Positions 6,663 to 30,125 of a stretch of DNA of 64,000 nt are shown one piece after another. The notes under the pieces were generated by a model. That model was given only the letters and a program-made list of their open reading frames with translations. It was not told the origin of the DNA and made no database searches. Each line of letters begins with the position of its first letter. The stretch's first letter is position 1. Source of the stretch: Thermococcus gammatolerans EJ3 (GTDB lineage: Archaea; Methanobacteriota_B; Thermococci; Thermococcales; Thermococcaceae); the NCBI RefSeq assembly GCF_000022365.1, contig NC_012804.1:992001-1056000 (forward strand), written 5' to 3'. The position numbers and the translations under genes were made by a program.

Positions 6663-9600
6663 ATGAGCAGAAAGACTCTAAGTGTCTTGATTGTTTTAAT
6701 TATGGCCCTGGCCATCGTTCCAGTGACCTCAGCGCCGGTTTCAGCTACCAGTGTTTCCACTATTTCCCAGACGACTCAGGGTGGAAAGCTTCTCCCCGTT
6801 GACAAGCAGATTGAGAAACTTCTAAACGGCAACGATAAGGAAGTAAGGCTAATCATTGCACCGACTAAGGACAAGGCTATGGATGTTTACAATGAAATAG
6901 CCAAGATAGGCAAGATAGACCCAATAAGTAGACCCCAGGACTGCTTTATCGTCGCGACGATTCCAAGGGAGAACCTTGAAAAGTTGAAGTCAATTGAGGG
7001 CATAGTCGGGATCTGGGAGGACAGGATGGTCAAACTCCCAGAACCCGTTAAAGAGCCCGACCAGCCCGCGATCATCGGTTCCGACGTTCCAAAACCCGAC
7101 ATGTTCCTGAGCGTTTACACAACCCAGGCCTATGACACGTGGGTGGACCTCGGGATTCTGGGAGACAACGTCACTGTCGCCGTCCTTGACACTGGAGTTG
7201 ACGTTGGACATCCCTTCCTACAGACCACCCTCGACGGAAGGAGGAAGATCATAAAAGTCTACGATGAGAGCGATGAAGGAATAGCCGACCTCTATTACAG
7301 CACCAACACAACCGAAGACGGATACATCGTCGTTAACGAGACCGTCCAGGTGTACTGGGGTGTTTATTCAATATACTACGGCCACCAGCCATTCACTGAG
7401 TATAACATGACCCAGTACTACGTTGGGGACATACAGGGAGATATGTACTACGTTGGCCTTCTCCCCGAGAGGTACTTCGACCTCAACAACTTCAACGGCG
7501 AGCCCTACGATCCATACGACCTCGGTCTCTTCGGAGACCTCAGCGACGTTTATCCTGTTCTCGTCGTCGAGAAGAACGGAACCTACACCGTGTACATTGA
7601 CTTGAACCTCGACAACGACTTCACAAACGACCAGCCGCTTACGCTCTACGACGAGACCGGGGCCTACATCCAGGTGCCCACCACCAAGGTTGACATAGCC
7701 CTCGCTGACGTTGTGCCTGAGTACGGATACGTTGTCTTCATGTGGGATGCCCACGGCCACGGAACCCACGTCAGCGGAACAATAGCGGGTGTTGGCCTGC
7801 CAACCGATCCCGTCTTCAACGAAACCTACGGAATGGCCCCCAACGCCCAGCTCATAGAGCTCAAAGTTCTTCCGGGTGAGCTTGGATTTGGAAGGCTGAG
7901 CTGGATAATCTACGGAATGATCGATGCAGTTTACATGGGGGCAGACGTCATAAGCATGTCCCTTGGCTCGTCTCCAATCTACAACGACGGTCTTGAGAAC
8001 CCCGAGATATTCTACGTTAACCTTCTAACTGACTGGTATGGGGTCACCTTCGTTATAGCCGCAGGAAACGAGGGCCCGACCACAAACACCGTTGGATCAC
8101 CGGGTGACAGCGACCTTGCAATAACCGTTGGCGCCTACCGCTCAAGCCTCAGGTGGCAGATGTTCTGGGGAGTCGACGGCGTTGCCGATACCGTGGCCAG
8201 CTTCTCCAGCAGGGGCCCAAGGATGGACGGTATGCTCGACCCGGACGTTATCGCTCCGGGTGAGGACATCTTCTCAAGCCTCCCGCTCTGGTACACAGTC
8301 ATGTACGACAACCCCTACAGGTACTACGGCATCTGGAGCGGAACCTCGATGGCCACGCCACACGTCAGCGGAGCCGTTGCCCTGCTAATAAGCTACGCAA
8401 AGGAGTACAACCTCACCTACAACCCGCTCATGCTCAGGCGCGCCCTCGAGCTCAGCGCCAAGCCAGTTGAGGGTGCGACCATGATAGACCAGGGCTTTGG
8501 TCTCATCCAGGTTGAAGACGCCATAAATGTTCTCCAGAACCTCAGCCAGGAGCAGACGATATACATCTACGGAGGAACAACCTACACTGGATTCAGGGAC
8601 CTCCTTGGAAAGAAGAAGATACCGCTCAGCCCAGCTTACGTTGAGTTCAACAGCTACTTCTATGCTGAGTTTGGACTTCCGTACCTCTACCGCGGCGTTT
8701 ACATAAGGAACGAGAGGCCGGCTGGAGTGCCGCTGTACTTCTATCCGCTTGTGTACTATAATGACTGGGGCCTCTGGTACACTGAGAGCGAGAAGGCGTA
8801 CAGAATCAGCACCAACGTTGACTGGATTATACCCAACACCGATGAGGTCGTCGCCGGTGGATGGGGTAGGGGCGGTGTTACGATTGGTTCATTCAGCATC
8901 CAGATAGACTACTCCAAGCTCGAACCCGGTAAGGTATATGTTGGCTTCGTTTACATCGACGATCCTGACACCGAGCAGATCGACGGATTCATTCCGGTCA
9001 TCATCGACATGCCGCTGAACCCGAACGGCGAGAGCGAGGCGAGCCTCAGCGACACCGCCCTTCCGGGCGTTGCCAAGCACTACTTCTTCCAGGTTGCCCC
9101 GGGAACCAAGGAGCTTCGCGTTACCCTAAGGGTACCGCTCGACGAGAACGGCACCCCGATGGGCAGGACGACCCTCATGATTGCCAAGCCAAACGGAGAG
9201 GTCGTTGCTGCCTACGTGCCGAACTACTGGTTCGTCGGTCCAGGCCTGCCCGAGTACACCTGGGTCATCAGTGACCCAGAACCCGGCAACTGGGAGATAA
9301 CGGCTTACACGAGCACGTTCACCAAGCCCAGAACCGGTTACGATGAGTCCCACTACCAGATCTCCGTCAAAGCCGTCTCCGTAACCATACAGCCCGAGAA
9401 GATCCAGGTTGACCGCGAGACTGGTGGAGTCATTCACGTTCCGATATCCGTCAGGAACAGCAACTACGGAACCTTCATGGCCAAGGTCTCCGGACTTGGA
9501 ATGGGCAGGCTTGACGTAGCGTACGGCATGATCAGAAACGTCAGCCAGGATGAGTTTGACGTCATCGGCTACATTCCAGTTACCTCAAGTGACTACTACC

Positions 9601-25163: not shown

Positions 25164-26054
25164 ATGGGATTTACCTTTTGGAGGGTACTTGTTCCCGCTA
25201 TCCTTATCCTCGTCGGTCTTCTCGCAGGAGCCTGGCTTATGAACGATGGTCCTTATGGGATCCCAGTAAACGGTAGTTCTCATGAGACCTCCGGTTCTTT
25301 CAACTGCACAGGTGAGTTTAAAGCCCCTTCGAACTCCTTCGGCTGGTTGGCCGTCGCTGAGAGGTTTGAGGACCACTGGGTGAGGTTCACAGAGGTGTTC
25401 GCCCTCATCCCAAAGGTGGACCTCAGGGCTTCCAATAGCTACGGCAGGCTTTACATCGAGAACTGGACGTCCGGAATGAACATTAAGCCCCCCTGCTACG
25501 TCCAGGGGGGAGAGGTCGTGTTTGAAACGAACTCCACGGCCAGGGTGTTCTATCATGTCACACTCTGCACGTCCAACTCCTCCGAGACAAACCTGATGTA
25601 CTCTCCATGTGAGGAATTAAAAACCCTCCTCGGAAGGGTGGAGCTCCCGGCCGGCAGGGTCAGCCTGGCAATGTACATCGTGCCCACTGGAAACGCTTCG
25701 TGGGACAGGTGGGATCACGTCTACTGCTCCCGGGTGGAGAATTTCCTTGGAACCTGCGGCCACCCTGAGAAAGTCGTCAAGAACTTCACGGTCCCCTGTC
25801 ACTGTGGCATTGAAGCCGTTCTCTCATACCTCAGGGAGCGGATCGAGGGGGCGGGATTCGAGCAGGTGTCTTCCAACGGGACCAATGGAAACGACGTGTT
25901 CTCCGAGGTTCACCGGCTCACCTACAGGAGGCCAAGCGGGTACCTGTACCTTGAGGTGGCTGGCATAAAAGGCATGAACGCCACCAGGGTTTTCATCGCT
26001 TTAGGAGACGAGGGAATGGTGAAAGCTGTCTCGGGGGTCTTCTCCTCAGGTTAA
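25164..26054 (+). CDS. Exported or membrane-anchored Cys-rich protein, paralogue of the next gene
   Basis: A 296-residue protein. A single hydrophobic segment (residues 5-25, WRVLVPAILILVGLLAGAWLM) is a signal peptide or anchor, followed by an extracellular domain with about a dozen Asn-X-Ser/Thr sequons and about eight cysteines. The motifs IKPPC and VPCHCG recur in the next gene as IKPPC and VCSCG, showing the two are paralogues sharing one fold. The C-terminal 50 residues (YRRPSGYLYLEVAGIKG...RVFIALGD) are beta-rich. I recognise no family. The pair forms an operon 19 nt apart, upstream of the DUF1884 gene. It is probably a surface protein with disulfides. Confidence 0.8.
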   Translation: MGFTFWRVLVPAILILVGLLAGAWLMNDGPYGIPVNGSSHETSGSFNCTGEFKAPSNSFGWLAVAERFEDHWVRFTEVFALIPKVDLRASNSYGRLYIENWTSGMNIKPPCYVQGGEVVFETNSTARVFYHVTLCTSNSSETNLMYSPCEELKTLLGRVELPAGRVSLAMYIVPTGNASWDRWDHVYCSRVENFLGTCGHPEKVVKNFTVPCHCGIEAVLSYLRERIEGAGFEQVSSNGTNGNDVFSEVHRLTYRRPSGYLYLEVAGIKGMNATRVFIALGDEGMVKAVSGVFSSG

Positions 26055-26073
26055 AGTTTGGGAGGTGCTGTCC

Positions 26074-26951
26074 ATGAAAAAAGTCCAGATCCTTGCCGCC
26101 CTTCTGGTTTTTGCCCTTTTCTCGGGAGTGGTGGCCATCCAATTTAAGGGAGGATCCGGAAAGAAAGCGATGACGGAGGATATGCCCTCCACAGGAACCA
26201 ACCCTAAGGACTCAACTCCGATCGAAACTGAAAAACCTGAGGTTCCCTCCTGTACCCTCATCTCAAACACGAGCTTTGAGCCGATAAATGGGGTCGTGGG
26301 ATGGTGGATAAAAGACGGAACAGGGAGGACAGCCTACGGCAAGGACATTGAGATCACTCCAAAGGTGAACCTCAGCGAGATGAAGAGCTACGGTAAGTCG
26401 CTGTGGGTTGACTGGCCGGCGGAACTCGGTATAAAGCCGCCCTGCCCTCTGGTGGGAGATGCCTTCATCTCGGTAAGCGAGGCAGAAGTCGATGCTGATT
26501 TTAAGCCTCCCTGTCATTCCCTGAAGAGGTCGGCCAAGTTACCACCTGGAAAGGTCTATCTGGCGAGCTACGTTGTCCCGGTCAAGAACTCAAGCTGGAC
26601 CGTCTACGAGAACATCCCCATCGGCAACGGAACCAATTTCCTGAAGACGGGCGGTATACAGGGTGGCAGGGTGACAAATCTCACTGCCGTCTGCTCCTGT
26701 GGAAGCGAGGGGCTGATTGAGGCCCTTAAAGCGTCTATAAAGGCTGCTGGTTTTGAAGAGGTGCCCTCTGGAGGACACCGAGGGAAAACGACTGCTTCAA
26801 GCCGCTGATGGCTGGACTTTACAGGAAAGGTAGCAGGTACCTCTACGTCGAGGTGGCAGAGGTAAAGGGTCGCGGTCTGCTCAGGGTTTTCATGGCAATG
26901 GGAGAGGAGGAAACCCTAAAACCCTACGTTGAGGTTTTCTCGGCCGGGTGA
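26074..26951 (+). pseudogene. Exported Cys-containing paralogue, broken by a frameshift near 26770-26805
   Basis: The first open frame runs from ATG 26074 (after GGAGGTG) to TGA 26808 and covers a signal segment (KVQILAALLVFALFSGVVA), a Thr/Pro/Glu-rich linker and the domain shared with the preceding gene up to AAGFEEVPSGG. In another frame, from about 26772 to TGA 26951, the sequence continues as the missing C-terminus (LYRKGSRYLYVEVAEVKGRGLLRVFMAMGEE), which aligns with the end of the preceding protein. One base missing near GGAGGACACC restores the frame. Either this is a recent mutation, a sequencing error, or programmed frameshifting. Otherwise it matches its neighbour in length. Confidence 0.75.
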
Positions 26952-26995
26952 GCAACCCTTTTAAGTCCCCCTCCCCACTTTTTTCGGTGTCCAAA

Positions 26996-27274
26996 ATGCG
27001 CGGTGATCTGATACGCGTTCTGAGCGATATAGAGGAGAAGGCCAACGAGCTGAAGCTCGACGGCTACGAGCCGGACGTCGTTCTGGTCGGCTTGGAGGCC
27101 TACGAGTTCATAAAGGAGCAGGTGAAGGAGGAGTTCGGGGGAGATGAAGAGATACTGGAGCTTTCAGGACTTAAGATAAGGCTCCTCGAAGAGCTCGGCG
27201 GCGATGCGGTGGTTATAGACACGAAGGCCCTCGGCTACGCCCCCGCTGCAAAGAGGCTCAGGATCGTCCAATAA
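26996..27274 (+). CDS. DUF1884 protein, family 4 (A-domain) encapsulin-like
   Basis: A 92-residue protein, MRGDLIRVLSDIEEKANELKLDGYEPD at the N-terminus and LLEELGGDAVVIDTKALGY near the C-terminus. It matches what I recall of P. furiosus PF0899 (DUF1884), whose fold is the isolated A-domain of HK97-type capsid/encapsulin shells; such proteins have been grouped as family 4 encapsulins in hyperthermophiles. The ATG at 26996 is chosen because the conserved sequence begins there; a longer frame from 26948 adds low-quality sequence. It follows the exported-protein pair by 44 nt and overlaps the convergent CitG-like gene by 17 nt. Its cargo, and whether it assembles, are not evident from sequence. 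Confidence 0.82.
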   Translation: MRGDLIRVLSDIEEKANELKLDGYEPDVVLVGLEAYEFIKEQVKEEFGGDEEILELSGLKIRLLEELGGDAVVIDTKALGYAPAAKRLRIVQ

Positions 27275-29368: not shown

Positions 29369-29959
29369 TCAGGCGGAATCGTAGTATATGACGTAGGTAT
29401 CGCCGTCGTCGTAGACTTCCTGCGGGGCGACGCCGTAGAGGTACTTCCAGCTGAAGCCGGGGTGAGCATCTATGTCAGGCCCTCCAACGGCCTTATAGGA
29501 AGCCCAAACCAGCTCGGAGCAGTAGTATTTGTCCCCGTAGACATGCTTGGTGTACCAGGCCCAGTCATAGGGCTTTCCAAGCTGCTGGAGAGCGAAGTAC
29601 ACAGCGTTCATCCTCACGTAGTCTGAGGTTGCCACGCGGAGAACTGCCACTGTGTCGTACCTCTGGAGGAAGTCCGAGAGGTAGACCAGCCTGACTTCGC
29701 TGGGGTCGTCCCAGGCCTCGATGACAATGTACTCTCCGGCGGATGAATCATAGCCAACGATCATACCGGTGTGGGTCCAGTAGCCTGGGATGAAGAGATC
29801 GCTTATGGGGTTGTGTCCGATAACGATATCACCGGGTTTGAGGCCTGTGGGATACGGGTGGCTGTAGGGGGCTCCGCTCTTGCTTCCAAAGGCTCCCACC
29901 GGCTGGAGAACCATGGACATGGCAACAACAACCGTCAGTATTGCCATCAACCTCTTCAT
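29369..29959 (-). CDS. Exported YiiX/permuted papain-like (NlpC/P60 superfamily) hydrolase
   Basis: A 196-residue protein with a Sec signal peptide (RLMAILTVVVAMSMVLQPVGA) and a permuted papain-type cysteine hydrolase domain: LKPGDIVIGHNP, WTHTGMIVGYD with the catalytic His, and YYCSELVWASYKAVG with the catalytic Cys. YiiX/YebB-like enzymes cleave amide or thioester bonds. The archaeon has no murein, so the target is not bacterial-type peptidoglycan of its own wall. It may act on lipids, surface protein or a competitor's wall. The ATG at 29959 follows GGGGTG. It is monocistronic. Confidence 0.82.
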   Translation of the reverse strand: MKRLMAILTVVVAMSMVLQPVGAFGSKSGAPYSHPYPTGLKPGDIVIGHNPISDLFIPGYWTHTGMIVGYDSSAGEYIVIEAWDDPSEVRLVYLSDFLQRYDTVAVLRVATSDYVRMNAVYFALQQLGKPYDWAWYTKHVYGDKYYCSELVWASYKAVGGPDIDAHPGFSWKYLYGVAPQEVYDDGDTYVIYYDSA

Positions 29960-30125
29960 TTTAGGCACCCCAGGGAGTTGTTCGTACATAATAGGCGTTT
30001 AGTACTTATAAATGTTTCTTTCTGTACATTAATGGACGTTGAGAGACACCACAGAAGGGTACACCGTTGGAGTGTATTCAAAGATCCACAGAACACTCAA
30101 TTATTGGGGATAAAATGAAAAACAC

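Follow-up and report, generated by a model that had tools for sequence, protein, structure and literature searches.

Genes and predicted promoter elements of the A-domain locus

Our analysis concerned a small gene in a 64,000-nt stretch of the Thermococcus gammatolerans EJ3 genome (hereafter the window). The open reading frame at 26996-27274 on the forward strand is complete and in frame, with 92 codons and the TAA included in these coordinates, and profile and structure matches identify its 92-residue product as a family 4A A-domain encapsulin-like protein (PF08967, NF041190); the opposite strand of the same interval has an internal stop and gives no complete reading in that frame. An alternative, longer reading would begin with a GTG at 26948, but this is unlikely because the TATA-like box of the predicted promoter (CCTTTTAAG, 26957-26965 on the forward strand, about 37 nt before the ATG) and a ribosome-binding site, GGTGT at 26986-26990 on the same strand (consensus GGDGRD; PMC4247193), both precede the ATG at 26996, which is the likely start of the gene.

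Upstream on the same strand, Pfam matches identify genes for an OsmC-like protein (PF02566, 23943-24353), published as the 'enzymatic component' of this locus type, and for a MarC-family membrane protein (PF01914, 24394-25035), which is often found between OsmC and the A-domain gene. MarC is followed, again on the forward strand, by two genes for exported proteins. The first (25164-26054) encodes 296 amino acids with 8 Cys and has no Pfam match; the second (26065-26951), its paralogue, is frameshifted near 26770, the called ORF covering 26065-26808 and the remainder running in another frame to about 26951. The A-domain gene, from which OsmC is separated by MarC and these two genes, has a promoter signal of its own. 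Convergent with it is a CitG-like gene (PF01874, 27258-28193, reverse strand), and the 3' ends of the two overlap by 17 nt; we know of no functional link between them. The preliminary description of this DNA was right about the pair of exported Cys-containing paralogues and about the convergent CitG-like gene, but overlooked OsmC and MarC. An exported-looking permuted papain-like amidase of the C92 family (PF05708) is encoded at 29369-29989 on the reverse strand and is conserved in the sister locus L080. There, the copy of exported protein 2 (8070-8956) is frameshifted at a different place, and a C39-peptidase-like gene (L080:6677-8059) occupies the position expected for exported protein 1.

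The matches of the 92-residue product to its family are far beyond chance. It matches Pfam PF08967 ('ENCP4') with an E-value of 1.8e-33, NCBIfam NF041190 (encap_f4a, 'family 4A encapsulin') with 156 bits at a cut-off of 90, compared with 39 bits for the 4B and 20 bits for the 4C profile, and the sequence of 2PK8 (P. furiosus PF0899) with an E-value of 4e-28. PF08967 was the only match in the Pfam scan, with none to the family 1 profile PF04454, and the conserved residues are E18, L19, G23, D27, G32, D75, G80 and R87. These results bear out the preliminary description in so far as it saw a complete, in-frame product resembling PF0899 and assigned it to the family 4 A-domain encapsulins. Its suggestion of an 'undescribed system' does not survive, however: the window gene belongs to a family, a subclass (4A) and a locus type (OsmC-MarC) that were already described in 2021 (Andreas and Giessen, 2021; PMC8346489).

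Upstream context and predicted promoter of 4A genes across Thermococcales

The 4A gene is present in 74 of 74 good Thermococcales genomes, and genomes of the same phylum outside Thermococcales gave no 4A match. 4A and 4B are each represented by a single gene in the T. gammatolerans genome, and a search of it for a family 1 encapsulin (PF04454) found none. The tree that we built from 68 4A proteins (93 columns) has many unresolved forks and keeps the genera largely in order; judged from these sequences, 4A is a core gene, vertically inherited in Thermococcales.

The upstream context, by contrast, changes at least nine times on the same tree. Since longest-ORF calling gave antisense ORFs in place of OsmC in several loci, we used tblastn to establish the neighbourhoods of the 68 4A genes. 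OsmC lies upstream in 48 of them, immediately adjacent in 15 (in three genera), with MarC between in 20 and with further inserts in 13, the window locus being one of the latter. MarC is present upstream without OsmC at six loci, and a hydrogenase is directly upstream at six Pyrococcus-type loci, a label that we inferred from the hydrogenase locus and from the near-identity of one protein (L098) to PF0899; at L098 itself, four opposing genes lie between hydA and the A-domain gene. Upstream genes are unrelated at seven loci, such as the gene for a DHH/S1 protein at L075 or, on the reverse strand, one for a radical SAM protein at L092. CitG is convergent downstream in 60/68, that is, at all non-Pyrococcus loci, and abuts or overlaps the A-domain gene in most of these. 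Only some Thermococcus lineages have the exported Cys-rich genes in the slot after MarC and before the A-domain gene, and the sequences compared suggest that this slot turns over quickly. The preliminary description had looked to a recurring enzyme partner, and on this the comparison is divided: the upstream genes vary between genomes, yet OsmC and CitG recur at the frequencies given above.

A promoter signal nevertheless persists while the upstream genes change. A simple TATA-type pattern at -46 to -30 was found at 56/68 4A loci, which are related and so do not count as independent observations, versus 0/11 4B loci, against a background of about 6% of random windows and about 10% of Markov shuffles. 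We then scored the loci with a BRE/TATA model for which 260 other upstream regions of these loci had served as the training set. The best site lies near -37 in every 4A context, in agreement with the mapped promoters of T. kodakarensis, where TATA is 23 nt before the transcription start and the median leader is 16 nt (PMC4247193). The score exceeds 5 at 74% of 4A loci versus 4.7% of the coding background; its median is 6.9 where OsmC is adjacent, 8.2 for OsmC-MarC, 9.6 for MarC alone, 7.9 for hydrogenase and 10.6 for the remaining contexts, and is low (1.3) at the insert-carrying loci, the type to which the window belongs. By the same model, separate promoter signals precede OsmC, MarC and the A-domain gene. 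As a sequence signal, this points to a BRE/TATA promoter belonging to the 4A gene itself, at a constant spacing from the start and regardless of the upstream genes; the gene may still be co-transcribed with MarC or OsmC.

Because the upstream genes change while this signal persists, the neighbourhood of a 4A gene is weak evidence of its cargo, and the partner of 4A probably cannot be read from it. This bears directly on the published proposal of an A-domain protein that would bind or enclose the enzyme encoded upstream of it, a function that the authors termed speculative (PMC8346489). For the loci considered here, the A-domain protein would bind or enclose the OsmC peroxidase upstream and stabilise it against heat and oxidation. 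The frequency of OsmC upstream, its direct adjacency in three genera and the fact that in many lineages it is the nearest gene other than MarC all speak for this model. Both genes are also near-universal, an OsmC orthologue being present in 72 of the 74 genomes, but for that very reason presence and absence cannot separate the models. Against it, most Pyrococcus-type genomes and several Thermococcus lineages have OsmC at another place and nonetheless retain the A-domain protein, with up to 84% identity to that of the window. It appears from this that the A-domain protein is not visibly affected when OsmC linkage is lost. Linked and unlinked OsmC moreover align over equal length, and therefore no added targeting tail is seen on the linked protein. 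Together with the separate promoter signals of the three genes, these observations lead us to consider a dedicated OsmC system rather unlikely.

Fold of the protein and its candidate roles

An AlphaFold2 model of the 92-residue product, built from 48 relatives, has a mean pLDDT of 92 and a pTM of 0.81. In a Foldseek search it matched 2PK8 with a TM of 0.97, and after 2PK8 nearly all of the best 50 PDB matches were HK97-fold capsids or encapsulins. Each of these is weak by itself (E 0.09-0.6; TM to the query about 0.5-0.6 over about 74 columns at 2.8-3.5 Å; TM 0.59 at 2.8 Å for the HK97 head), but the set is consistent. The predicted monomer shows an HK97 A-domain-like fold without the other shell domains, as the preliminary description had supposed, and its size fits the approximately 100-residue, A-domain-only criterion of family 4A, although the capsid fold matches are weak in E-value. 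Matches of the A-domain profile to pentatricopeptide proteins were dismissed because they come from a single short motif that recurs in these proteins, and a match to KtrA was not significant (E 0.09-0.11). Searched against a library of predicted viral structures, the model found several small stand-alone phage proteins among its best matches; two of these, A0A127AW84 (Bacillus phage SP-15, 128 aa) and A0A068EMQ5 (Bacillus phage CP-51, 82 aa), both unassigned in function, each resemble the A-domain fold by themselves.

Could the likeness to HK97 be a coincidence of small alpha/beta folds, and the product a small binding protein or enzyme accessory of unrelated origin? A search of PHROGs and phage genomes by sequence found no viral relative, the best capsid fold matches reach an E-value of only about 0.1, and the high and specific conservation of the protein resembles that of a binding site more than that of a bare scaffold. 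A random small fold, on the other hand, would not be expected to return HK97-fold proteins almost exclusively, and we therefore think a coincidence improbable. Fold kinship with encapsulins would suit a closed, virus-derived compartment with unknown cargo, as the preliminary description proposed. In HK97-fold shells, however, it is the P-domain, E-loop and N-arm that join the capsomers, and a closed shell is unlikely because all three are absent from the A-domain protein. With no family 4 shell reported in the literature searched and no family 1 shell gene in the same genome, we give this reading very little credence. That the exported Cys-rich proteins are the partners, as their adjacency in this genome and in some relatives might suggest, is barely credible and largely refuted by the locus comparison, because they have export-type N-termini, which the A-domain protein lacks, are missing from the slot at most loci, and occur as broken copies, with one gene frameshifted in the window and another frameshift and a different inserted gene in L080.

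The reading we prefer, to which we give about an even chance, is that the 4A protein is a vertically inherited core protein that self-associates and acts on a cytosolic partner as its scaffold or chaperone. According to this model, the A-domain protein would be made independently of its neighbours and would self-associate into a small oligomer through the A-domain helices. As a scaffold or chaperone, the oligomer would bind one or several cytosolic proteins and so may stabilise the bound partner.

Comparison with published family 4 loci and HK97-fold shells

Andreas and Giessen (2021) named family 4, reported that every sequenced Pyrococcus and Thermococcus genome carries it, and defined two types of 4A locus (hydrogenase; OsmC, often with MarC) and two of 4B (GAPDH; DeoC) (PMC8346489). 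The published crystal is a dimer, which they suspected to be a possible tag artefact (PMC8346489). Later experimental work on family 4 was not found in the literature searched, and the main text of the T. kodakarensis interactome paper makes no mention of encapsulin, OsmC or DUF1884. What our study adds is evidence for the turnover of the 4A neighbourhood and for the gene's own promoter signal. The published rule that the upstream enzyme is the cargo is thereby weakened for 4A, since the neighbourhood shifts while the protein sequence and the promoter signal stay. Partners of 4A would be better sought by pull-down than by gene order, and 4A and 4B are better handled separately. We further propose, tentatively and with somewhat less than even confidence, that 4A is an independently expressed core protein, a single HK97-type domain that became a general cytosolic scaffold or chaperone, rather than a shell dedicated to its neighbour, and that an enzyme link (to DeoC or GAPDH) exists for 4B only.

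Among the known systems, the published OsmC-type 4A loci are the closest to the window, with the same family, subclass, upstream OsmC and MarC, and host order (PMC8346489); the window differs in the two exported-protein genes after MarC, which leave the end of OsmC about 2.6 kb away. PF0899 (2PK8) of P. furiosus, a hydrogenase-type 4A protein, is 55% identical to the window protein and has the same fold (TM 0.97), but its relatives follow a [NiFe] hydrogenase operon, and not OsmC. The HK97 major capsid protein and the family 1 encapsulins share the A-domain fold (TM about 0.5-0.6 over about 74 columns) without detectable sequence similarity to the window protein, but are full-length shell proteins with a P-domain, an E-loop and a known assembly.

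The 4B protein has the same fold family and a conserved DAV-D-LG-A-R core; that of T. gammatolerans (L102) is about 34% identical to the 4A protein. The gene upstream of 4B was deoC at the two Thermococcus loci checked and that for GAPDH at the Pyrococcus-type one. DeoC and GAPDH both handle glyceraldehyde 3-phosphate, and we propose for this reason that 4B may be linked to that intermediate. Unlike 4A, which has a promoter box of its own, 4B has none and instead overlaps deoC, as in T. gammatolerans, where its start codon overlaps the deoC end (L102:8319-9273), or follows GAPDH.
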